64,000 nucleotides of DNA, taken from Acetomicrobium flavidum (lineage in GTDB: Bacteria > Synergistota > Synergistia > Synergistales > Acetomicrobiaceae). Positions 32,992 through 46,416 of this stretch are shown piece by piece. The notes under the pieces were generated by a model. It saw only the letters and a list, made by a program, of their open reading frames with translations. It searched no databases and had not been told where the DNA came from. The stretch spans positions 1,698,001-1,762,000 of the forward strand of contig NZ_FSQZ01000001.1 of the NCBI RefSeq assembly GCF_900129645.1. Direction: 5' to 3'. The translations under genes and the position numbers were made by a program. Each line of letters opens with the position of its first letter. Position 1 is the first letter of the stretch.

Positions 32992-34182
32992 TTAGCGAAT
33001 GCTCAAGTACTTTTTGGGCACTTGGATGTTTGTCATGCCCAAAAATCCTTTTCCAAAGACATAAGTATCTTGATATAGGAGTATATGTCGCTTGTTTTCT
33101 ATGCCGGTGTTTAAGTCCACATAGTAACTTCCGTTCCATTTAGCTCCCGGAGTATATTTTTCGAAGGCAACCACTAAGCTTTCGAGATCTAGCTTGGCTT
33201 TGCCATCTATCACTCGCTTGGCAAGTTCGACCAGGCCGGCGGAATTGGTGTATCCATAAGAGTAGGCCCATGTTCCCAGCCGCCCCGATGCGCCCTTCTC
33301 TTTAATGACTTGCTCGATCTTTTTTATTATCGCAGGAAAATCTCCCTTCTCAGCAGACAGGTCTATTCCCAGCGCTCCGGGGTATCCCATGAGAGGGGAA
33401 GGAAGATCGGCCTCGACGAAATAACCGCCGTAAGCCACTATCTGTCTGATCAAAGGTTCGGTATGGGCATCGTTGGTGCAGAAAAATGCAGTGTTTTTGC
33501 CGTACTTCTGCAGCCATGCAGGGACCTTCTCGAGTATGAACTGCTGAGCTCCGGCTACTCCTACGTCGCTGACCGGGTCCGGTGCCGTCTCGAAGTGGAA
33601 CTTGAGGCCTAGATCATTACATGCTACCTCCATGATGTTGCGCCTTCTTGAAAGAAGCTCATAACTCATGTGGCGGGGGAAGGAGATGTGGACGAAGTCG
33701 GTCGCGCCCATCTTTTTAGCTGCCATAGGGATCAAATATCCCCTATGAATGTTATTGACGTTGGTGATTAGGTCCGCTATGGAGCCGATAACTCCCGGGT
33801 CTTCATGTGCCTCTGCCGCAATGCACAAAATGTCCGGCCTTTTTTCCTTTATGCGCCTGAAGGCCTCGGTAGTGCCGGGGATAGCGTTGTTGACGATTAT
33901 AGCTTTCATCAAAGGATCATCAGCTAAACCTACAATTTGGCTTATGACCGTCTCCATCTCCTGCATGAAGTTATCGGGATATGTGATGTGTTGGATCATG
34001 CCGCCGCGAGCTACATCGCCATACTCGCGTATGGCTCGCTCCGCTCCTCGCAAGTCATCCTCGGCCTGCGATACCGTCTCGGTGCAAATGCCGATGTGAT
34101 AGGGAGCATTTGCTGAGGCTGGCAGCACGAAATACCCAAAAATCATCATGCAGATAAATGCAAATGCAAAAAACCTCTTCAT
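32992..34182 (-). CDS. exported DUF3798 protein, periplasmic-binding-protein-like
   Basis: This 396-residue protein starts with a signal peptide (MKRFFAFAFICMMIFGYFVL, cleavage near ASANA). The mature part begins HIGICTETVSQAEDDLRGAE and shows alternating strand-helix segments such as KAIIVNNAIPGT and NTAFFCTNDAHTEPLIRQI, a fold like type I periplasmic binding proteins. DUF3798 members occur in Synergistota and Firmicutes with no proven ligand. GGAGGG precedes the ATG. No transporter genes adjoin it on the same strand. Confidence 0.82.
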   Translation of the reverse strand: MKRFFAFAFICMMIFGYFVLPASANAPYHIGICTETVSQAEDDLRGAERAIREYGDVARGGMIQHITYPDNFMQEMETVISQIVGLADDPLMKAIIVNNAIPGTTEAFRRIKEKRPDILCIAAEAHEDPGVIGSIADLITNVNNIHRGYLIPMAAKKMGATDFVHISFPRHMSYELLSRRRNIMEVACNDLGLKFHFETAPDPVSDVGVAGAQQFILEKVPAWLQKYGKNTAFFCTNDAHTEPLIRQIVAYGGYFVEADLPSPLMGYPGALGIDLSAEKGDFPAIIKKIEQVIKEKGASGRLGTWAYSYGYTNSAGLVELAKRVIDGKAKLDLESLVVAFEKYTPGAKWNGSYYVDLNTGIENKRHILLYQDTYVFGKGFLGMTNIQVPKKYLSIR

Positions 34183-34399: not shown

Positions 34400-34873
34400 A
34401 TGGAGATAAAGATGATTTTAAACGGCAGGGACGAGTTTTTTGACGTGGATCCGAGCATAAGGTTGATAGATTTTTTAAGGTCGAGAGGGCTTACAAGCGT
34501 TAAGGAGGGTTGCGGCGAGGGCGAATGTGGTGCTTGTACCGTTTTGTTGGACGGCAAAGCCGTCACCGCCTGTACTCTATTTGCCTTTCAAGCACATGGA
34601 CATGAGATAACAACGCTAGAAGGATTGCAAAAAGATGGAGAATTAGATGTGATTCAAAGAGCTTTTATCGAAAACGATGCAGTCCAATGTGGCTTTTGTA
34701 CTCCAGGCATGATTATGGCAGTCAAAGCCTTGCTTAAAGAAAATCCAAATCCTACCGCTGAAGATATATACATTGCAATAGAGGGAAACTTGTGCCGATG
34801 CACTGGCTATCTCCCGATAGTGAAAGCGGTGTTGCAAATCGTTAGAGAGGGTGCAGGTAAAGAATGTCTTTAG
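34400..34873 (+). CDS. molybdenum hydroxylase [2Fe-2S] subunit (xanthine dehydrogenase family)
   Basis: This 157-residue electron-transfer subunit binds two [2Fe-2S] clusters: plant-type C38, C43, C46 and C58 (CGEGECGAC...C) and the second set C97, C100, C132 and C134 (QCGFC and CRC). It passes electrons from the Mo cofactor to the FAD subunit. Order here is FeS-FAD-Mo with overlaps of ten and four bases, so the three polypeptides should be made in equal amounts. A GGAGAG ribosome binding site precedes the ATG. Confidence 0.93.
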   Translation: MEIKMILNGRDEFFDVDPSIRLIDFLRSRGLTSVKEGCGEGECGACTVLLDGKAVTACTLFAFQAHGHEITTLEGLQKDGELDVIQRAFIENDAVQCGFCTPGMIMAVKALLKENPNPTAEDIYIAIEGNLCRCTGYLPIVKAVLQIVREGAGKECL

Positions 34874-35730
34874 ATATCATGAATTTGATGCCAAAAGATA
34901 AGAAAGAGCTCATAGAGTGTTTGTCGCAAATGAACGAGGATACCCGTTTTGTTGCCGGTGGAACGGATGTACTACCTTCCCTTGAAGGAGGGTTAAAAAA
35001 ATTTACGTATATCGATATAACGCATGTTAGTGACATGGATGCAATTAAGGTGACCGAAGATAAAGTGATTGTAGGAGCTACAGCCACTTTCTCTGACATC
35101 GCAAGAAATCAATTTATTAGAACATATGCGCAAGCCCTATCAATGGCCGCATCTCAAATAGGTTCCGTACAAATTCGAAATAGAGCGACCATAGGAGGAA
35201 ATGTAGCTAACGCTTCGCCTGCAGCTGACTCCTTGCCTGCGTTGGCCTTGCTGAATTCTGAGGTTGAAATCTTGGGCCCAAATGGCCAATCCAAAATGAT
35301 TTCTGTCTTGGATGTTATAGAAGACGTGGGAGTTAGTGCGTTAAGGCCTTATGAAGTGATATGGGCTTTTCATATCCCTATACGACCGCATGTGCGTTCG
35401 GCATTTGTGAAGATTGGAAGCAGGAAGCGCGTAACCATATCACGTCTTAATTTAGCAATTTCTGCCAAGTTTAGCGGGGAAGGTTTAAGCGACGTTAATG
35501 TCTGCCTTGGCACTTTGGGGCCCCGTCCGCTGCTGATCGCCAATATAGATCGCGACTTCAAGGGCATAAGCACCAAAGACTTTCCAATTGATTTTTTTCT
35601 GAACCTCTTGACTAATGTAGTAGATCTGGCCATACCAAACAGACCATCCAGGGCATACAAAAGAACGGCCGTAAGAGGTCTGGGCATTGACGTTTTAGAT
35701 GTCCTGTTTGGACGGAGGTGTATGCTTTGA
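34864..35730 (+). CDS. molybdenum hydroxylase FAD-binding subunit
   Basis: This 288-residue subunit has the FAD-binding motifs of the XDH-B/CoxM family: FVAGGTDVLPSL near the N-terminus and IRNRATIGGNVANASPAADS in the middle. The C-terminal CO-dehydrogenase flavoprotein domain follows. It passes electrons from [2Fe-2S] clusters to an acceptor. Start and stop overlap both neighbours. Confidence 0.93.
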   Translation: MSLDIMNLMPKDKKELIECLSQMNEDTRFVAGGTDVLPSLEGGLKKFTYIDITHVSDMDAIKVTEDKVIVGATATFSDIARNQFIRTYAQALSMAASQIGSVQIRNRATIGGNVANASPAADSLPALALLNSEVEILGPNGQSKMISVLDVIEDVGVSALRPYEVIWAFHIPIRPHVRSAFVKIGSRKRVTISRLNLAISAKFSGEGLSDVNVCLGTLGPRPLLIANIDRDFKGISTKDFPIDFFLNLLTNVVDLAIPNRPSRAYKRTAVRGLGIDVLDVLFGRRCML

Positions 35731-38009
35731 GTGCTCAAGGGAAGACGATTAGGGAAGTCCAAAAAGATGCTTATAGAAAAGAGGCCTATAGATACGTAGG
35801 GCAAAATGTCACCCGGTTGGATGCCAAAGAAAAGATAACCGCAGCGATAAAGTATATCGATGACATTGACATGAGAGGGATGCTCCACATTAAGCTGCTT
35901 CTTTCTCCTTATGCAAATGCAATTGTAAAGTCAATCGATTCAACAGAAGCAGAATCCATGCCAGGCGTCGTTAAAGTGTATAGCTGGGTTAATACCCCTA
36001 AAATACGTTACAATAGTGCGATTTTTTATCCTGGCCAAACGGACTTGGAAGACGAAACGCTCTTTTCGGAACATATGCGATATGTGGGCGACAGAGTAGC
36101 TGCCGTAGTGGCTGAATCTAAAGAAGCTGCCGAGGAGGGGATGAACAGGCTTAAAGTGGAGTACGATAAGCTTATTCCCCTCCTAGATCCGGTCAAAGCT
36201 TTGGACCAACAACATGAGGAGCGTCGGGAAGTCAATCTCTCCTGCGGTGACATTGAGAAGATAAAAGGCGATACGACTGATCTGGTTGTCGTAGAAGATG
36301 AAGTACGTACACAGAAGATTCATCATGCAGCCCTCGAGCCTCACGCCTGCATCGCTTATATGGAACCTGGGGACATCGTGACGGTGCTGTCGCCATGCCA
36401 ACTTATTTTTGGAGTCAGATATATCGTGTCTAAGGTTTTAGATCATCCCCTTAGCAAGGTTCGGGTTATCAAGTGGGCAATGGGTGGGACTTTTGGAGGT
36501 AAACAGGAAGTGATCCTTGAACCATTATGCGCCTATATAGCTAAAGATTTGGGTCGCCCTGTTAAATTATCGTTAAATCGCAGCGAGACCATAGTGGCAA
36601 CACGGACCCGTGCGGCAACTGTGGGCAAGGTCAAGACAATAGTATCAAAAGCTGGCAGATTCATCGGTCGTGAAGTCGATATAGTCACAGATGCAGGAGC
36701 TTATATGACAGGTGCACATCGCGTTACTACGGCCATGGGTAAAAAACTCTTTAGACTTTATCGTATACCTCATCAATCATATAAGGGAACGACAGTGCGG
36801 ACGAATACGACCCCTTCAGGTGCCTGCCGAGGTTATGGCTCCCCTCAAATACATACTATCACCGAAATAAACGTGGATCATATCGCAAGAGAGTTAAAGC
36901 TAGATCCCGTCAAGCTAAGGTTGAGAAACCTTGTAGTTCCTTTTGACGATGATCCTTCTGGAGGCCCTAACTTGGGAAATGCCAGGATCATCGAATGCGT
37001 TAATCGTGGTGCAGAAGCCTTTTGTTGGAAAGAAAGGTTTTCGTTCGTTCCCCAAGGAGGTAGGTTTAGGCGTGGCGTTGGCATGGCCTGTTCCACTCAC
37101 AGTAACGGATACGCGGGGTCCATATATCCGGATTTCACGGCCATGAATATGAGATTGACAGAAGATGGTGCTGTTTTGGTCAATGCCGGACTTCATGAAT
37201 TAGGCAACGGTACTTTGACGGTCATCGCCCAGATTGTAGCTGAAGTCCTTGATGTAAATATTAAGAAAGTCGTGGTTAGCGAAGGGGACACCACGCATTC
37301 TCCATATGATGTAGGATGCGTAGCAAGCAGGGTCACCTATGTATGCGGAAATTGTGCGAAAAAGCTTGCCGAGGAAATCAGAGAAAAGTTTCGCGCACTG
37401 GCTTCTATCGTTTTAAGGGTGCCTTTAAATGAGATAACGTTTTATGATGGCAATATCATAGTGAAGTCAAATAAAGATAGGGCTTTTTCTTACGGGGAAG
37501 TTATATCTGAGATCGGAAGGACCTTACAGGAAGAGGTGGGGGGATACCTATCGTATAAGTCGGTGGCAAATCCTGGGTCTTACGCTGCGCACTTTACTGA
37601 AGTTGAGGTCGATACGCTGACGGGATCTGTTGCGGTCATTGACTATCTGGCTGTTCATGACGTGGGTAAGGCAATTAATCCCAAATTGGTCGAGGGGCAA
37701 ATCTACGGTGGGGTTCAAATGGGCATAGGAATGGCTTTATTTGAGGAGCTTACGTATGATTCGCAAGGTAACCCTCGAAATGCATCCTTCAGTCGTTATA
37801 CCATGGTCAATGCTCCGGAAATGCCCAACGTCAAGGTCATGCTTGTTGAAGACGAAGAACCATCCGGGCCGTTTGGGGCCAAAAGCGTTGGAGAGATAGC
37901 GACCGTTCCTGTAGCATCTGCGGTTGTCAATGCAGTAAATTGGGCTCTTGGGACTCATTTAGCACAGCTGCCACTGACTCCTGCCAGTATCATTTCATCT
38001 ATTAAATAA
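35727..38009 (+). CDS. molybdenum hydroxylase catalytic (molybdopterin) subunit
   Basis: This 760-residue protein carries the aldehyde-oxidase/xanthine-dehydrogenase domains. Mo-cofactor segments are GGTFGGKQE (about residue 252), ACRGYGSPQ (about 365) and GAKSVGEIATVP (about 720), whose Glu fits the catalytic Glu of the family. The CO-dehydrogenase Cys loop was not found, so it is a hydroxylase of a purine, N-heterocycle or similar substrate. TTG 35727 overlaps the FAD-subunit stop (TTGA), with GGAGG eight bases upstream. The substrate is unknown; the linked carrier and ammonia-lyase homologue may handle the same compound. Confidence 0.9.
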   Translation: MSAQGKTIREVQKDAYRKEAYRYVGQNVTRLDAKEKITAAIKYIDDIDMRGMLHIKLLLSPYANAIVKSIDSTEAESMPGVVKVYSWVNTPKIRYNSAIFYPGQTDLEDETLFSEHMRYVGDRVAAVVAESKEAAEEGMNRLKVEYDKLIPLLDPVKALDQQHEERREVNLSCGDIEKIKGDTTDLVVVEDEVRTQKIHHAALEPHACIAYMEPGDIVTVLSPCQLIFGVRYIVSKVLDHPLSKVRVIKWAMGGTFGGKQEVILEPLCAYIAKDLGRPVKLSLNRSETIVATRTRAATVGKVKTIVSKAGRFIGREVDIVTDAGAYMTGAHRVTTAMGKKLFRLYRIPHQSYKGTTVRTNTTPSGACRGYGSPQIHTITEINVDHIARELKLDPVKLRLRNLVVPFDDDPSGGPNLGNARIIECVNRGAEAFCWKERFSFVPQGGRFRRGVGMACSTHSNGYAGSIYPDFTAMNMRLTEDGAVLVNAGLHELGNGTLTVIAQIVAEVLDVNIKKVVVSEGDTTHSPYDVGCVASRVTYVCGNCAKKLAEEIREKFRALASIVLRVPLNEITFYDGNIIVKSNKDRAFSYGEVISEIGRTLQEEVGGYLSYKSVANPGSYAAHFTEVEVDTLTGSVAVIDYLAVHDVGKAINPKLVEGQIYGGVQMGIGMALFEELTYDSQGNPRNASFSRYTMVNAPEMPNVKVMLVEDEEPSGPFGAKSVGEIATVPVASAVVNAVNWALGTHLAQLPLTPASIISSIK

Positions 38010-38035: not shown

Positions 38036-39433
38036 ATGAGAAAAAAGATGATGTTTAAGGCATTCCCTCATGCTTATGTCTTGCTTTTTGGGATCATTGT
38101 ATTGATGGCAATAATGACATGGATAATACCGGCAGGGGAATATGCTCGCGTTCAGGTCGGTGGGCGGACTATAGTGGACCCATCCAGCTTTCATTATATA
38201 CAGCGTTCGCCCGTAGGCTTTTTTAAAATGTTCGTAGCGATTCCGAAGGGCATAAATTCGGCTTCGTCTTTGTTGTTCATGATAATGATAATAGGTGCTT
38301 CCATTCAGCTTTTCGATAGCACCGGAGCCATTAGAGCTGCAGTATTTAAGCTATTGGACATAATAGGTCAACAAAGAAAGTCTTGGGTAATAGTGGTAAT
38401 CATGTTGTTTTTTGGTTGCCTTGGGGCTTTTCCCGGCATGCTTGAAGCTGCTATCCCCTTTGCGCCGCTTTGTATAGGTATCGCTTTGGCGTTAGGTTAC
38501 GATGTATTGGTAGGAATATCTGTTCCGGTAATTTCCATCGTCGTAGGATGGACCGCGGGGCCAACTAACCCATGGACCGTGGGCATCGGTCAAAATTTAG
38601 GCGAGCTTCCGCTTTTTTCGGGGCTTGGTTATCGGCTCGTGGTTTTTGTAGCGTTGATGATGCTAGCGATCAGGTTTGTACTAGCATATGGCGAACGGGT
38701 ACAGAGGGATCCAACTTTAAGCATCGCCGATGGCCTGGATATGTCTCATCTGAGAGACCTACAAAATATGAATGTCGAAGCCTTTACGACCAGGCACGGG
38801 CTTATTTTACTGACCTTCGCCGCGACAATTTTCGTCGTAGTCTATGGAGCCATAAGATGGAACTTCGGGTTTTTCGAGATGTCGGCGGTGTACATCATAG
38901 GTTCTATTATTGGTGGCATAATAGCAGGTTATGACGGCAATGAGATCGCCGAGAAGCTGATAGGGGGAGGCCAATCCATATTTGTTGGTGCCATTGCTGT
39001 GGGCCTTGCGAGGGGTATCAGCGTAGTTATGGAGGAAGGCAAAATCATAGATACTATAGTCATGGGACTTGCACGTGTGATGGATTTCCTTCCCTCGTGG
39101 TTGTGTGCGATCGGAATGTTTGTAATGCAGACCTTCATCAACTTTTTCATTCCTTCCGGCAGCGGTCAGGCTTTGGCAACTTTGCCGATAGCGTTGCCAG
39201 TGGCAGATATAATAAACCTCAATAGACAGATTGCAATTTTAGCATTCCAATTTGGAGATGGGTTATCAAATCTTTGCTATCCGACCGTTGGCGTTTTAAT
39301 TGCCTATCTCATTTACACAAAGGTTCCTTTTAATCGGTGGCTTAGGTTCATCATGCCTTTTATGTGGAGCTCCTGGTTATTGGCAATTATCCTATTGTTG
39401 ATTGCAACTTGGATGGACTACGGGCCTTTTTAG
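38036..39433 (+). CDS. YfcC/C4-dicarboxylate-carrier-like membrane transporter
   Basis: This 465-residue protein has about twelve helices; it begins FPHAYVLLFGIIVLMAIMTWIIPAGEY, a hallmark of the YfcC/ArcD-like family, and includes NFFIPSGSGQALATLP near the C-terminus. Members carry amino acids, peptides or dicarboxylates across the inner membrane. It lies 26 bases after the Mo subunit and 45 bases before the exported ammonia-lyase homologue, so it probably imports the product or substrate used by this unit. Confidence 0.86.
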   Translation: MRKKMMFKAFPHAYVLLFGIIVLMAIMTWIIPAGEYARVQVGGRTIVDPSSFHYIQRSPVGFFKMFVAIPKGINSASSLLFMIMIIGASIQLFDSTGAIRAAVFKLLDIIGQQRKSWVIVVIMLFFGCLGAFPGMLEAAIPFAPLCIGIALALGYDVLVGISVPVISIVVGWTAGPTNPWTVGIGQNLGELPLFSGLGYRLVVFVALMMLAIRFVLAYGERVQRDPTLSIADGLDMSHLRDLQNMNVEAFTTRHGLILLTFAATIFVVVYGAIRWNFGFFEMSAVYIIGSIIGGIIAGYDGNEIAEKLIGGGQSIFVGAIAVGLARGISVVMEEGKIIDTIVMGLARVMDFLPSWLCAIGMFVMQTFINFFIPSGSGQALATLPIALPVADIINLNRQIAILAFQFGDGLSNLCYPTVGVLIAYLIYTKVPFNRWLRFIMPFMWSSWLLAIILLLIATWMDYGPF

Positions 39434-39478: not shown

Positions 39479-41155
39479 ATGCGAGGAAAGAGTTTGGTTA
39501 GGATAGCTTTTTTGTCGTCAATCGTAGTGATGCTTTTTGCGTTGCCATCGATGGCGGCCACGACAAAAGTTGTCCTGGATGGACACAGTTTGACAATCGA
39601 CGAAGTTCTTAGCGTTTCAAAGGGAGAAGTTGAGGTCGCAATATCACCGGAAGCGATGAAGCAGGTTGAGGCCGGCTTTGCTGTGGTGATGGAGGCAGCT
39701 TTACAGGGAAAACCCGTTTATGGCCTAACCACTGGAGTGGGGTGGAACAAGGATAAGTCAGTTTTCGAAGAAAGGGACGGCAAGAAGGTATTGTCAGAGG
39801 AGCTCTTGGCGCGCTCAAGGGAATTTAACATTCTTTCGTTGCGCGCTCATGGTGGCGGTGTTGGACCTGACCTTCCCGCAGATGTCGTTCGGGCAGCCAT
39901 GTTAATACGCCTAAATACTTTTCTGACAGGAATCCCGGGAGTGCAACCTGCCGTTGTTAACCAGTATCGGGACTTTCTGAACAAAAAGATCACGCCTGTT
40001 GTGCCTTCAAGGGGCTCCGTCGGAGAAGCTGATATTACCATTGCATCTCATATAGGCCTTGCGATGATAGGGGAGTGGCAGGTTGATTATAGAGGGAAAC
40101 GTATGGCGGCTGCTGACGCCTTGAAGGAAGCTGGTCTTTCTCCGATCAAGCCGGTGGGCAAAGATTTTCTGTCCATGCTTAGTACTAATGCGGTAGCAGC
40201 AGGACAAGCAGTATTGGCTGTTGAAGAAGCCAAAAATTATGCCAATAAAGCTATAGTGGTATTTGGTTTAACTTTGGAAGGACTTAACGGTAATATAGCC
40301 CCTTTTCTAAAGGCCACGACGGAGATTCGCCCTTTTCCGGGAATGCTTAAAGCTTCTAAAATGATTCGCGATACTTTAGAAGGAAGTTATTTGTGGCAAC
40401 CGGCAGAAGGAAGACCACTTCAGGACCCTTTGTCGTTTAGGACAATGGGTTATGCCCTCGGGAATGTCTTGGATGCAATTGAAGAAGCGGAAAAAGCCCT
40501 CATTATTCAAATAAACAGCAGCGACGATAACCCAGCTGTTATTGCAGGAGTAACTGAAGTTGAACGACCGGACAGCGAGTACATCACTAACTATTTGGTG
40601 AAAGGCGAGCAAAAAGGGGCGATCTATCCTACCGCCAATTTCGATATGCTGCCCGTAGTTGCGAGAATTGAGCAATTATCTCATTCGTTAGCCCGCATGT
40701 CTCAGAACATAGTCATGCAGACTATAAGGTTTGAAAATCCAAATATTACAGGGTTAAGCAGATTTTTGGCTTCAGAGGAGAATACGTTGGGCCATGCCTT
40801 TGGAGCCATCCAGAAGCCTTTGGGAGAGTTGTATGCAGAAAACAGGCAATTGGCAATGCCCGTTTCCATGGATGGCTTTGCCCTTGCGGGCAACATAGAA
40901 GATACATTTGCAAACAGCTTATTGGCCATTCGCAACCTGGAAAAGATAACTGATAATATGTACTACATCTCCTCGATTCAGATGCTACATACCGCCCAAG
41001 CAGTTGACCTTCGCGGTAAGGTTCAATTGGCCAAAAAGACAAAGGCGTTGTACGATGCATATCGCAAGGTAGTTCCCTTCGTATCGTTTGACAGAATATA
41101 TACTGCTGACTTTACTAAGGGATATGAATTCTTGAAATCTTATACTGTTAAATAA
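39479..41155 (+). CDS. exported histidine/aromatic ammonia-lyase homologue lacking the MIO triad
   Basis: This 558-residue protein has the fold signature of the HAL/PAL family: PVYGLTTGVGW near the N-terminus, VPSRGSVG, NSSDDNPAV and RIEQLSHSLARMSQN. Two things are odd. It starts with a good signal peptide (basic start, IAFLSSIVVMLFAL core, cleavage after SMA). The Ala-Ser-Gly triad that forms the electrophilic MIO cofactor is replaced: G179-S180-V181-G182 is followed by E183-A184-D185, one residue shorter than HAL. L318 replaces the catalytic Tyr of the HAL DPYSxR motif, though R321 stays. Ordinary ammonia-lyase chemistry is therefore doubtful. It may be a binding protein or an enzyme with another mechanism. 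AAGGAG precedes ATG 39479. Confidence 0.85.
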   Translation: MRGKSLVRIAFLSSIVVMLFALPSMAATTKVVLDGHSLTIDEVLSVSKGEVEVAISPEAMKQVEAGFAVVMEAALQGKPVYGLTTGVGWNKDKSVFEERDGKKVLSEELLARSREFNILSLRAHGGGVGPDLPADVVRAAMLIRLNTFLTGIPGVQPAVVNQYRDFLNKKITPVVPSRGSVGEADITIASHIGLAMIGEWQVDYRGKRMAAADALKEAGLSPIKPVGKDFLSMLSTNAVAAGQAVLAVEEAKNYANKAIVVFGLTLEGLNGNIAPFLKATTEIRPFPGMLKASKMIRDTLEGSYLWQPAEGRPLQDPLSFRTMGYALGNVLDAIEEAEKALIIQINSSDDNPAVIAGVTEVERPDSEYITNYLVKGEQKGAIYPTANFDMLPVVARIEQLSHSLARMSQNIVMQTIRFENPNITGLSRFLASEENTLGHAFGAIQKPLGELYAENRQLAMPVSMDGFALAGNIEDTFANSLLAIRNLEKITDNMYYISSIQMLHTAQAVDLRGKVQLAKKTKALYDAYRKVVPFVSFDRIYTADFTKGYEFLKSYTVK

Positions 41156-44100
41156 CGCGAAATATCTTCATGGGACAAAAGGCTTGTCAACAACTTGCAA
41201 GCCTTTTGTCTCTCGTGTTCTATATGAAGGCCTTCGAGGATACAAACTGCTTCTTTAGCATATTCTACGGCACTTTCAGGAAGCTCATCGATCCATAAAT
41301 GTTTGAATTCATCGCGATTATCCATAATATTCCGCATTATTCCCTTAGTATATAACAACATACCTATCCAGTATTTTTTATTTAATGTTGCACAGATATG
41401 ATTTGCCTTGCGAAGGTTATCGATAGCCCTTCCTGGTTCGCCTTCTGTGGCCCAATATAAAGCTAAGAGGGTGTGCGATATCGCGGCCCCTCTTCCGCCA
41501 TTATGTTGTTCGTTTAGCTGTATCGATTTATTGAGATGATAAAGCATAAGCGAATGGTCTTTTAAATCGAAGGCAACATGGCCGGCATTTGCGTGAAACA
41601 AGCTTAAGCCATGATATAGACCTTGTTTATTACATAAGGATATACAATATTCATAGAGACTTAGCGCTTCTTCGAATCGACCTTCCCAGTGCCTTACATC
41701 GCCAAGGTAGTTTAGAGCTGCTATAATGCTTAAGCTGTTTCTGGGCCTAGTAGTGTTCAGTCTTTCGAAAGTTTTTATCGATGCCTTAAATAATCTCTCT
41801 GCCCTTTTCAGATCTCCAGTTAACAGATATCCTAGCCCAAGAAATCTCAGTGAGACTCCTATATAAGAATCTAAAAAGTTTGACTGAGCAGCCTTAAGCA
41901 TGTCCAGTGCATATTTTTTAAGCATTTGTCCATTCTCAGTTTGTATGCCGAAATAGCAAAGGCCAAGGAGGCAATCCAATTCCAATTTAGTTTCTCCTCT
42001 ATTTTTGGCCCAGTACAAGGTATCGTAGATTTTCTTTAATCCTTCCCTGTATTTTCCATACCATATAAGATAGCTGCCATCCAGCCAGTAATATGTCCTT
42101 TCTAGAACTTCAAGTTCATGGCTTTCCCCAATAGTACAGTGAATTTCATAAAGTAAATCTCGAACATCCTTTCCATACGTAGCCATAGACTCCATTTCGG
42201 AGAAGGGAACCCTAGCTGATTTTAGCGTTTCGTCACTCAGCATTGGAAACAGTTCATGGTTAAAGCTTAAGTGCAATTTGAGCAAATTTAACCTAGCTTT
42301 AAGTTCCTCTATCAATAAATTAGCTTGATGTAAATGGTAAATTGAATTTAAACCTTCTTTCCATTTTATGTTTGACCAATCGCCCATGTCTTCTCGAGTT
42401 AAATATGCCAATCTTTCGTGAAGGGATCGCTTGTGTTCTCGTTCAATAAAGTTGTATATAATACTTTTGATCTCTGAGTGCGAAAAGGCATAATGTCGAT
42501 CGCCGTCCTCTATTTTTTCGATGATAAAACCTTTATTCATCAGAGAGTTGATTGCCTCGGCGAGTTCCTGTTCATCTGCATTATTTAGGATTGATTTGAG
42601 TAATTTATAACTGGCATCAACATTGAAGACGGATATGACCTTGAGAAGTTCGCCCTCGAGCTTGGGAAGTAAAACAAAGTGCTCTTTTACTATATCTTGC
42701 AGTTTTTGAGAAAACAAATTTAGATTTTTGCCTTCTGCAATTAAACTTGCGATCTCCTTTAAAAATAACGGAGTTCCTTTTGTGTAATTGTAAATTACCT
42801 CAAGTTGTTCTGGTGACACCTTGTAGGAGGGGAGCAAAAATCTGCAAAAATTCTCTGTGCCCTCTTTTGTAAATGGATAAATTTTTATGTGCATATAATC
42901 TAGGCTATCTCTTCGATAAGCGCTTTTAAGCAATGCGTCGATATGGTGAGCATCATCGTTACGAGATTCGATTATTATCCTAATATAGGCGGGTAAACGA
43001 TTTAAAAAACAGCGAAATACCTCTATGGAAGCAGAATCGAAATCGTGCAAATTTTCCATGTACAGAACTACCTTGTTGTCCCTTTTCCTCTTTTGCTCTA
43101 TGCTTTTCGCGAGCATATCGGATAGCGTGCCGGGTGTATGAAGGCCAACTAGAGAAAGGTTTGATGTTGATAATCTGGATAGTAGCTCATGCCACGGACC
43201 CAAAGGATATTGGGAGCCATTGATCTCGATCGCTTTGCATGATAGCAACAAGTCACCCGCTTCTAAATATGTATCTAAAAAGTGGCGTATTAGATGGCTC
43301 TTGCCGACTCCGGGCACTCCGGTTATTAAGATGCATTTAGGAATTCGCGATGGATCTGATATCTTGCAGAAGGCGTGTAACCGGGCAAGCTCGTCCTCCC
43401 TTCCGAAAATTGAACCATACAAAGACAAAGGCCTCGTATTGTTTAGGCGATCGACCATATTCTTTTGATGCATCAGACATATTTCATCATATAGTGATTC
43501 TGTCGATACATCGGGACTGACTCCTAAAATTTCGATAACTTTTGATTTGAATATTTGGTATGTTTGCAAAGCTTTCGTAATTTGTCCCAGGGAAACGTAT
43601 ATATTCATGGTCGACTTAATGACTTCCTCATCAAATTCGTCAAGCTTTAAAATTAGCTTGGCCATCTCGAGGGCGGTGTCGTATGATTTGCTTTTGCAAC
43701 ACAATGCGAGGCGAGATTTGAGATTTTCGATACAAAAGCTCTTAATTTGCGTCCTTTTGGCAAAAACCCATTCCTCGAATTCGGGACATTTGGATATGTA
43801 AAAGCCGTCCAAAAATTCGTCTGCGATGCCTTCAAGCGAGTGTCTATGAATTTTGTTCAAGTCATGCAACATATCTATGTCAAGTGATAGGGGCGCAGAA
43901 TCGTTGATACGGATCCACTGATTGTCCTGTATTATTAAGTCTGGTGACAATGTTTTATGGAGGACATAGAGAGCATTTCTCAAATTTTTTAGCGCATAAA
44001 CCTGATCCAAATCGCCCCAGAAGATTCCGGCCAATTTTTCTCTAGACACTACTTTTTCGACGATTAGGTAATAGAAAAGACCTTCTGCTTTTCGAAATGG

Positions 44101-44166
44101 AAACTGGATAATATGTTCATCGCAAAACACCTGAGGCGATCCCAAAAGTTTAACTCGTAAATGCAT
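41140..44166 (-). CDS. large transcriptional activator: BTAD, ATPase and TPR domains
   Basis: This protein of about 1008 residues begins with an OmpR-like DNA-binding and BTAD segment (about 1-240, RKAEGLFYYLIVEKVVSREK and LGDIYIxxG-like repeats), then an AAA/STAND-type ATPase with Walker A ITGVPGVGKS (about residue 285) and Walker B VVLYMENLHDFD, and a long C-terminal TPR-like helical region. Such proteins activate adjacent catabolic or biosynthetic genes on an inducer. It converges on the ammonia-lyase homologue with a 16-base overlap of the 3' ends. ATG 44166 is favoured because AGGAG lies twelve bases upstream; a TTG at 44178 would touch it. A TATAAT-like box lies at 44202-44207 on this strand. 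Confidence 0.86.
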   Translation of the reverse strand: MHLRVKLLGSPQVFCDEHIIQFPFRKAEGLFYYLIVEKVVSREKLAGIFWGDLDQVYALKNLRNALYVLHKTLSPDLIIQDNQWIRINDSAPLSLDIDMLHDLNKIHRHSLEGIADEFLDGFYISKCPEFEEWVFAKRTQIKSFCIENLKSRLALCCKSKSYDTALEMAKLILKLDEFDEEVIKSTMNIYVSLGQITKALQTYQIFKSKVIEILGVSPDVSTESLYDEICLMHQKNMVDRLNNTRPLSLYGSIFGREDELARLHAFCKISDPSRIPKCILITGVPGVGKSHLIRHFLDTYLEAGDLLLSCKAIEINGSQYPLGPWHELLSRLSTSNLSLVGLHTPGTLSDMLAKSIEQKRKRDNKVVLYMENLHDFDSASIEVFRCFLNRLPAYIRIIIESRNDDAHHIDALLKSAYRRDSLDYMHIKIYPFTKEGTENFCRFLLPSYKVSPEQLEVIYNYTKGTPLFLKEIASLIAEGKNLNLFSQKLQDIVKEHFVLLPKLEGELLKVISVFNVDASYKLLKSILNNADEQELAEAINSLMNKGFIIEKIEDGDRHYAFSHSEIKSIIYNFIEREHKRSLHERLAYLTREDMGDWSNIKWKEGLNSIYHLHQANLLIEELKARLNLLKLHLSFNHELFPMLSDETLKSARVPFSEMESMATYGKDVRDLLYEIHCTIGESHELEVLERTYYWLDGSYLIWYGKYREGLKKIYDTLYWAKNRGETKLELDCLLGLCYFGIQTENGQMLKKYALDMLKAAQSNFLDSYIGVSLRFLGLGYLLTGDLKRAERLFKASIKTFERLNTTRPRNSLSIIAALNYLGDVRHWEGRFEEALSLYEYCISLCNKQGLYHGLSLFHANAGHVAFDLKDHSLMLYHLNKSIQLNEQHNGGRGAAISHTLLALYWATEGEPGRAIDNLRKANHICATLNKKYWIGMLLYTKGIMRNIMDNRDEFKHLWIDELPESAVEYAKEAVCILEGLHIEHERQKACKLLTSLLSHEDISRYLTV

Positions 44167-44178
44167 ATATTTGCTCAA

Positions 44179-44422: not shown

Positions 44423-44941
44423 CTAGACCTTTATAGTAGGTAGTTCATCCCAATATGATGTGTAACGAGGCGAACGCATGGATGCACTGGTGACCCATTT
44501 TTGGCTTTCTGGTTTGCCTCCAGCGGCAAGCCAAACTAAGGGCTTATTGGCTTCGAGGTTGATTTTATCAATTTCTCGCATTAATATATCTAATTTCTTG
44601 GATTGTTTTATGTCGCAGAATAACCCCTTTTGCAGTTCTTTACATGAGGAGATTTCAGAAAGCAGGACGCCAACCCTTTTATATTTCTTTCCTTCAATGT
44701 ATGCTAGCCTTAGCCCCTCTAATGCGGCCCTTACAATAGAGGGGGAATCGTTTTTAGGAGTTGCAAGGCAAACCCTTTTGCTGCCCCAGTAGCAATCTGG
44801 AACGTGAAAGCTCGTGGATATGTAGGTTGTAACAACATTAGCCAGCGACCTCTGTGTCCTCGCTGCGATATTATATATGCCTTCGTCAGCCTGCTTTGCA
44901 ATCTTGATGGCAATCGGGAACGAGTGGACCGTTAAGTACAT
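44423..44941 (-). pseudogene. umuC fragment (C-terminal part of a Y-family DNA polymerase)
   Basis: The 172 readable codons match the UmuC C-terminal little-finger and DUF4113 regions: ADEGIYNIAARTQRSLANVV, then YKRVGVLLSEI, KKLDILMREIDKIN and SPRYTSYWDELPTIKV at the end. UmuC proteins are about 420 residues long and carry the catalytic palm at the N-terminus; none of that is here. An in-frame stop lies directly before the first ATG, and no palm-domain coding was seen upstream. It is best called a remnant that cannot polymerise DNA. Confidence 0.8.
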
Positions 44942-45111: not shown

Positions 45112-46416
45112 ATGGCGCAAACAATAATCAATGCAAAAGAAATGGTCTGGGTGTTGGATCCAAATCAGCCCTTCGCAGGGCCGGTCAGGGATGGAGGAAT
45201 TATAGTCGCAAGGGTTAGTCCCGGATGTTGGGGAGCTATGATAACTCCCGATTACCCGAGCGGACATGAAGTCACGAAACCCATAGCAGTAGAAGGAGCA
45301 GACGTTGGGGATTCCATAATGATAAGGGTCAGGAAGATCAACGTCCTTTCGCTTGCCACGACGTCGGGTACCGATGTGCCTCAGGAAGGGCATTTCGTGG
45401 GCGATCCCTTTGTTGCCAAAAAATGTCCCTCTTGCGGCACGATAAATCCCGAGACATACGTCGAAGGCGTTGGCGAAGATGCCATACGTTGCAAGAAATG
45501 CGGAGCTCCCGTACATCCGTTCCTTTATGGCAACACTTATACAATACTCATGGATGACGAAAGGAAAGTTGGAGTGACAGTCCCACCGCAGGTCGCGAGG
45601 GAAATAGCCTGTGATGCAGCTCATTTTAGCGCACTGCCGCCTGAGTCTAAACAATACTCGGCCAACTTAATGGCAAGGGGAGACCTTCCTGGTCTTATAG
45701 CTCCTCTGCGCCCAATGGTTGGAAACCTTGGAACTTGTCCTGCCGTAGCGATGCCATCTTCTCATAACGCAGGTGATTTTGGAAGCTTTCTCGTGGGTGC
45801 GCCCCATGAATATGGCCTTACCGAAGAACAGCTGCGACTTCGCACCGATGGGCACATGGACATAAACGAAGTCGTAGAAGGTTCCGTCGTAATTGCTCCT
45901 GTAAAGGTCAAAGGTGGTGGAGTATACGTCGGTGATGTCCACGCCATGATGGGAGATGGGGAGATAGCCGGGCATACCACCGATGTAACAGCTGAGGTGA
46001 TACTGGAGGTAAAAGTATTAAAGGGCCTTTCTCTGGACGGTCCTATCGTCTTGCCCAGGGCTTGCGATCTTCCGGCTATAGTTGCAAGGCGAAGCGAAGA
46101 AATATTGAATAGGGCAAGGCGAATTGCAAGCCTTTATGGTTTCGAGGTGGAGGACGAAGCTCTTCCAATACAAATGGTAGGGAGCGGTAAAAACCTTAAC
46201 GAGGCTTGTGACAATGGCCTAAAGAGATTATCTGAGTTGACGGGGTTATCGCTGGATGAGGTCAAAAACAGGTGCACGATCACCGGACAGGTGGAAATTG
46301 GAAGGCTTCCGGGGGTCGTCCACGTTTCCATGCTCGTTCCTCGAAAGATACTCGAAAAAGTTGGCCTGTGGAATGTCGTAGCTTCACAATATGACTACGC
46401 ATGTCAAAGGGCTTGA
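45112..46416 (+). CDS. acetamidase/formamidase family protein with zinc-ribbon insertion
   Basis: This 434-residue amidase-fold protein carries FmdA/AmdA features: GGIIVARVSPGCWGAMITPDY, GHMDINEVVEGSVV and GDVHAMMGDGEIAGHTTDVT. Between residues 105 and 130 there is a four-Cys zinc-ribbon (C105, C108, C127, C130; CPSCG and CKKCG) that is not part of the classic formamidase core. The enzyme would release ammonia from a small amide, but the actual substrate is unknown. GGAGGTGGGG precedes the ATG. It is a single gene with its own promoter. Confidence 0.87.
   Translation: MAQTIINAKEMVWVLDPNQPFAGPVRDGGIIVARVSPGCWGAMITPDYPSGHEVTKPIAVEGADVGDSIMIRVRKINVLSLATTSGTDVPQEGHFVGDPFVAKKCPSCGTINPETYVEGVGEDAIRCKKCGAPVHPFLYGNTYTILMDDERKVGVTVPPQVAREIACDAAHFSALPPESKQYSANLMARGDLPGLIAPLRPMVGNLGTCPAVAMPSSHNAGDFGSFLVGAPHEYGLTEEQLRLRTDGHMDINEVVEGSVVIAPVKVKGGGVYVGDVHAMMGDGEIAGHTTDVTAEVILEVKVLKGLSLDGPIVLPRACDLPAIVARRSEEILNRARRIASLYGFEVEDEALPIQMVGSGKNLNEACDNGLKRLSELTGLSLDEVKNRCTITGQVEIGRLPGVVHVSMLVPRKILEKVGLWNVVASQYDYACQRA

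Follow-up and report, generated by a model that had tools for sequence, protein, structure and literature searches.

Ergothioneine is a dietary antioxidant whose microbial breakdown yields trimethylamine, a precursor of TMAO. Trimethylamine/trimethylammonium leaves more easily than ammonia, and MIO, the electrophile for expelling ammonia, is dispensable here because trimethylammonium is a good leaving group. Ergothionase does lack MIO (PMC13405746). A thiourocanate desulfhydrase is named in the same paper, and PMC12771579 cites a xanthine oxidase homolog of the thiourocanate desulfhydrase pathway in anaerobic gut bacteria. Thiourocanate has been reported to support Bacteroides growth and ATP synthesis via cross-feeding (PMC13405746). 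This 2026 survey, a BLAST search with one ergothionase, judged the enzyme to be rare, though it allowed that divergent or poorly annotated homologues had been left uncounted (PMC13405746).

Here the analysis was directed at a lyase gene in the window, i.e. the whole 64,000-nucleotide stretch of DNA that was analysed (Table 1). The ORF is intact. Its product has 558 aa if translation begins at the ATG (39479) and 561 aa if it begins at the GTG (39470); the ATG is the better choice, being preceded at about 8 nt by a Shine-Dalgarno-like AAGGAG and available as a start in the ortholog too. A promoter and terminator scan gave no signal above chance. Comparison with an 88%-identical Acetomicrobium ortholog (L039/L023) revealed strong purifying selection on the gene, with omega about 0.01 around the MIO-site stretch. 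The protein scored 444 bits against Pfam Lyase_aromatic (cut-off 27), its best PDB sequence match was ergothionase 6s7j (E=3.6e-98, 332 bits, the next match reaching 170 bits) and a profile search favored ergothionase with 630 versus 335 bits. An AlphaFold model (pLDDT 91.6, pTM 0.90) retrieved 6s7j first in Foldseek (E=4.6e-38), the best HAL giving 6e-29. In the NCBIfam search, the protein reached 277 bits against the curated HutH cut-off of 539, and no ergothionase model scored it; a separate, normal HutH is encoded in the same genome (G000:C1:388290). The product of this gene is very probably an exported ergothionase.

Table 1. Features of the lyase locus, with positions in the window.
Feature	Position	Strand	Basis or remark
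Xanthine-oxidase-family small [2Fe-2S] subunit, candidate thiourocanate desulfhydrase	34400..34873	+	Conserved beside ergothionases
Xanthine-oxidase-family FAD subunit	34864..35730	+	
Xanthine-oxidase-family Mo subunit	35718..38009	+	Groups with the lyase-linked subunits of Blautia, Acidaminobacter and Clostridium
DcuC/YfcC-family carrier, candidate (thio)urocanate importer	38036..39433	+	Pfam DcuC; 45 nt upstream of lyase
Exported MIO-less lyase, predicted ergothioneine trimethylamine-lyase (ergothionase), 558 aa	39479..41155	+	6s7j best by sequence and Foldseek; tree
Predicted Sec signal peptide, cleavage SMA-A	39479..39556	+	Sequence; clade-wide score; kept in L039 ortholog
GVGWNKD motif	39734..39754	+	Its Val, Asn, Lys and Asp distinguish MIO-less lyases and are invariant in 91 sequences
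E183-A184-D185 replacing HAL Ala-Ser-Gly-Asp, one residue fewer	40025..40033	+	Sequence, alignment
L318...R321 of LQDPLSFR, Leu for HAL Tyr280, Arg kept	40430..40441	+	Alignment; identical in 6s7j
BTAD/AAA/TPR regulator, convergent	41140..44178	-	Conserved near lyases in 17 loci

The earlier note on this DNA had described, with coordinates and residue numbers that proved correct, a HAL/PAL homologue whose MIO triad is missing and in which a leucine stands for the catalytic HAL Tyr while R321 is retained. The alignment and the fold comparison bear out this description, the nearest structure by both being 6s7j. At the MIO site the lyase reads G182-E183-A184-D185 (ATG numbering), one residue shorter than the HAL GASGD, so that no MIO can form. 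The active-site residues common to HAL and the MIO-less group (Tyr81, His124, Gln315, Arg321 and Glu474) are all retained. In addition, the window lyase carries the residues that are invariant or nearly so among 91 MIO-less sequences and differ from HAL, namely Val87, Asn90, Lys91, Asp92, Asp229, Leu318, Arg428, His504 and Arg512; the counterparts of the (near-)invariant set in Treponema denticola ergothionase are Y53, N62, K63, D64, H83, D188, L277, R280, R366, E411, H441 and R449. The kept Tyr, His, Arg and Glu together with the MIO-less-specific residues (Asn-Lys-Asp, Asp229, Arg428, His504 and Arg512) argue for a live enzyme rather than a binding protein.

Export was assessed with a home-made three-part (n/h/c-region) signal-peptide score. 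The N-terminus, MRGKSLVRIAFLSSIVVMLFALPSMA followed by A at the cleavage site, combines a positive n-region with a hydrophobic core (mean hydropathy 2.7), and residues 1-25 are the sole stretch with pLDDT <50 in the fold model. About 90 MIO-less relatives were gathered by a genome scan, related-genome searches and a plasmid search. In a maximum likelihood tree (short search) all MIO-less proteins, including ergothionase, form one clade (branch value 100) apart from HAL, within which the exported lyases make up one subclade (99) that is sister to the cytosolic ergothionases, the location label changing once. The score was passed by 31 of the 38 exported-clade representatives and by 0/20 cytosolic relatives, the signal being seemingly weakened or lost in L087 and L091. 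Both the signal peptide claimed in the earlier note and the further signal-peptide-bearing members without ASG that it proposed to search for were recovered, the latter as a predominantly signal-peptide-bearing clade that spans Synergistota, Proteobacteria, cyanobacteria and others. The window lyase falls in a 15-member subclade (100) with lyases from other Synergistota, Agrobacterium, Paracoccus, Martelella and Photobacterium, which includes lyases of ergothioneine clusters. A literature search for an exported ergothionase returned only generic signal-peptide papers. Lack of MIO is normal for an ergothionase, and what looks new is the predicted action of such an enzyme outside the cell. A further MIO-less HAL-like lineage from proteobacterial MAGs (L116 and L117), on a long branch, has YWFNRG, QDPESLR and the same one-residue deletion and is without GVGxNKD.

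Three gene contexts recur at the MIO-less lyase loci. In Alphaproteobacteria and some others, the exported lyase is accompanied by thiourocanate hydratase, thiohydantoin desulfurase, ErtD (hydantoin-propionate amidohydrolase) and ErtE (N-carbamoyl-glutamate amidohydrolase), a set for ergothioneine utilisation whose members pass their NCBIfam equivalog cut-offs; that of thiourocanate hydratase (NF058530) was passed in 7/8 tested loci (L040 counted), with L061 just below. In anaerobes, the lyase occurs with a three-subunit xanthine-oxidase-family enzyme and the BTAD/AAA/TPR regulator. The third context (34 loci in Gammaproteobacteria and Parasutterella) consists of the exported lyase, a twin-arginine-type flavoprotein and a tetrahaem cytochrome c; a sigma-54 activator is usual, 33 loci having a gene of that cluster. 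On a Paracoccus saliphilus plasmid (L035, 6642-13695) the exported lyase closes a hutI-hutH-hutG-hutU cluster that has TRAP transporters nearby, and downstream of the Acidaminobacter hydrogenoformans ergothionase cluster there are two further HAL-family ORFs in tandem (L107:15011-17844).

The window shows the second of these contexts in an operon-like arrangement. The earlier note had pointed to the molybdenum hydroxylase and transporter genes in front of the lyase, and rightly so, since they probably encode the two steps that follow the lyase reaction. Xanthine-oxidase trios lie near MIO-less lyases in 23-24 loci, and the lyase-linked large Mo subunits form one clade (19 rows, 100) uniting the window, Blautia, Acidaminobacter and Clostridium, with five paralogs from the window's own genome falling outside it. 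The window Mo enzyme is thereby an ortholog of the ergothionase-linked Blautia enzyme (42% identity), and the nearest solved relative of its Mo subunit is the reductive 4-hydroxybenzoyl-CoA reductase. The trio is most likely a thiourocanate C-S-cleaving enzyme, its identity with the characterised enzyme being presumed. The Mo enzyme of G020 (L025), with 31% identity and a long branch, was excluded from this support. The DcuC carrier adjoins the lyase also in L023/L039 and L024, the nearest Synergistota loci, and L106 has one within its ergothioneine cluster; it could instead import another acid. Two other neighbors found no support as pathway members. The exported DUF3798 protein (32992-34182, minus strand) is divergent from the lyase operon and has no counterpart at the ortholog locus L023/L039, and the acetamidase/formamidase (45112-46416) recurs only at that same-genus locus. 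With six xanthine-oxidase-family Mo subunits (G000:C1 1804816-1817818, 45411, 145224 and 1734225), the genome is rich in them for its 2.0 Mb. At 44423-44941 (minus strand) the window also holds a remnant of a UmuC-type polymerase C-terminus (IMS_C and DUF4113, 172 aa) that looks like part of a pseudogene; a copy that seems to be full-length lies elsewhere in same-genus L023.

The predicted location of the lyase coincides with a switch in transporter. A BCCT betaine transporter is encoded near the lyase in 20 of 22 cytosolic loci and in 0/68 exported loci (p=4.5e-18, uncorrected for relatedness), and among Mo-enzyme loci in 18/19 cytosolic and 0/4 exported cases, three of those four with an orthologous enzyme. 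Because the tree shows a single location switch, this association rests on few independent events. The pattern is that expected if the betaine is imported in the cytosolic case and the de-aminated carboxylate in the exported case. One BCCT gene is found elsewhere in the window genome, and this was counted against an exported ergothionase.

From these data a pathway can be proposed in which the lyase would act outside the inner membrane, where its HAL/PAL-type active site would eliminate trimethylamine from ergothioneine by an acid/base mechanism, independently of MIO, and leave thiourocanate. In the window organism, an Acetomicrobium-like member of the Synergistota, the adjacent DcuC-type carrier would take up thiourocanate, the adjacent Mo enzyme would convert it by reductive desulfurisation to urocanate and sulfide, and urocanate would pass to urocanase and the Hut enzymes encoded elsewhere in the genome. 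Catalysis, substrate, export, direction of transport and each catalytic step are predictions, and we consider this pathway probable and the best explanation for what was computed, namely homology, the loss of MIO, conserved residues, a signal peptide, the operon-like gene order, Mo-enzyme orthology and co-occurrence with ergothioneine genes. Neither a thiohydantoin desulfurase nor ErtD was found above cut-off in the window genome and urocanase HutU is present (G000:C1:1868150), which fits the desulfhydrase route.

Among competing substrates, other betaines with a trimethylammonium group come first, above all hercynine (histidine betaine), which the exported lyase would convert directly to urocanate. 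The ordinary urocanase beside the lyase in the complete hut cluster of L035, and likewise the ordinary HutU near that of Agrobacterium L093, would be better explained by hercynine at those loci; the L035 enzyme is possibly a hercynine lyase, and hercynine is a live alternative in such a P. saliphilus-like context. In the window organism it is less likely than ergothioneine and on the whole unlikely to be the main substrate, as the window carries a Mo enzyme of C-S-cleaving type that would be useless on a sulfur-free substrate, and the closest relatives of the lyase mostly adjoin thiourocanate hydratase. The earlier note read the gene as encoding a binding protein or an enzyme with new chemistry. 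This reading is not supported, since HAL relatives that lack MIO through precisely this deletion are already known as an enzyme class, ergothionase (6s7j/6s7q). The missing MIO and the substituted Tyr280 equivalent would suit an inactive HAL descendant that is exported to bind a ligand. Such a protein is very improbable: residues invariant in the MIO-less group and found in the active T. denticola enzyme are retained, purifying selection on the gene is strong, and the gene sits among those of pathway enzymes. We give hardly more than a slight chance, and a smaller one still, to a lyase that releases ammonia from a primary amino acid without MIO, or to other new chemistry on such a substrate, for which only the HAL/PAL homology speaks; the tree groups the lyase with ergothionase and not HAL, the HutH score falls short of its cut-off, and the association is with a betaine transporter and ergothioneine genes. 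As for a sequencing error or frameshift concealing a normal ASG triad, which the earlier note had allowed for, nothing was counted in its favor and its probability is negligible, since the identical deletion recurs in the L039/L023 ortholog, in about 90 aligned relatives and in the T. denticola crystal structure; purifying selection on the gene likewise speaks against it.

An exported ergothionase may have a further consequence in the third context. The reductase-cytochrome loci come from Shewanella, Ferrimonas, Citrobacter, Hafnia, Parasutterella and others (L046-L080, though not all, L096, L100, L110 and L115; e.g. L063:8356-12081), and the best solved relative of their twin-arginine-type flavoprotein is urocanate reductase. 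The gammaproteobacterial reductase retains the equivalents of UrdA Arg411 and Arg560, two positions that have been probed by mutation in UrdA, and is without Tyr373, Asp388 and Glu177 at the imidazole end. A plain urocanate reductase was rejected on these grounds, and the missing imidazole-site residues make another substrate more likely; their absence is what one might expect if the ring bound there differs, for instance by carrying a 2-thio group. The lyase, flavoprotein and cytochrome locus is a candidate periplasmic thiourocanate respiration operon. We regard it as about an even chance that in the widespread exported clade ergothioneine breakdown begins outside the inner membrane and that, with a dedicated periplasmic flavoprotein reductase and tetrahaem cytochrome, ergothioneine acts in these bacteria as the source of an electron acceptor for respiration with no need for import. 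If all three proteins are periplasmic, cross-feeding respiration would become import-free and confined to a single organism. The literature searched held no description of import-free single-organism ergothioneine respiration and nothing joining ergothioneine with urocanate reductase. The predicted module is directly testable in culturable Shewanella.

The exported clade is a divergent group of the kind that went uncounted in the 2026 survey, and it includes gut-associated Citrobacter, Hafnia and Parasutterella. Where annotated, its members are called histidine or aromatic amino-acid lyases; the signature GVGxNKD, the one-residue MIO deletion and LQDPLSxR together enable their re-annotation.

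Compared with known systems, the window lyase shares with HutH the fold and several active-site residues, but it is without the MIO triad, has Leu for Tyr280 and is predicted to be exported. The Ert clusters of Agrobacterium and Paracoccus house the closest exported lyases, with the thiohydantoin desulfurase and ErtD that the window genome appears to lack. The thiourocanate desulfhydrase pathway of gut anaerobes resembles the window organism in its Mo trio, BTAD regulator, adjoining MIO-less lyase and urocanase in the genome, whereas in the window a DcuC-type carrier and a predicted exported lyase replace the BCCT importer and cytosolic lyase. T. denticola ergothionase (6s7j/6s7q, 37% identity) has the same HAL/PAL fold, one-residue MIO-site deletion (SIGEGDIT versus SVGEADIT in the window), GVGWNKDK and LQDPLSFR motifs and residues invariant in the MIO-less group; unlike this enzyme, whose chain has no signal peptide, the window lyase carries a signal peptide, two insertions (about residues 93-106 and 357-382) and residues specific to the exported clade.
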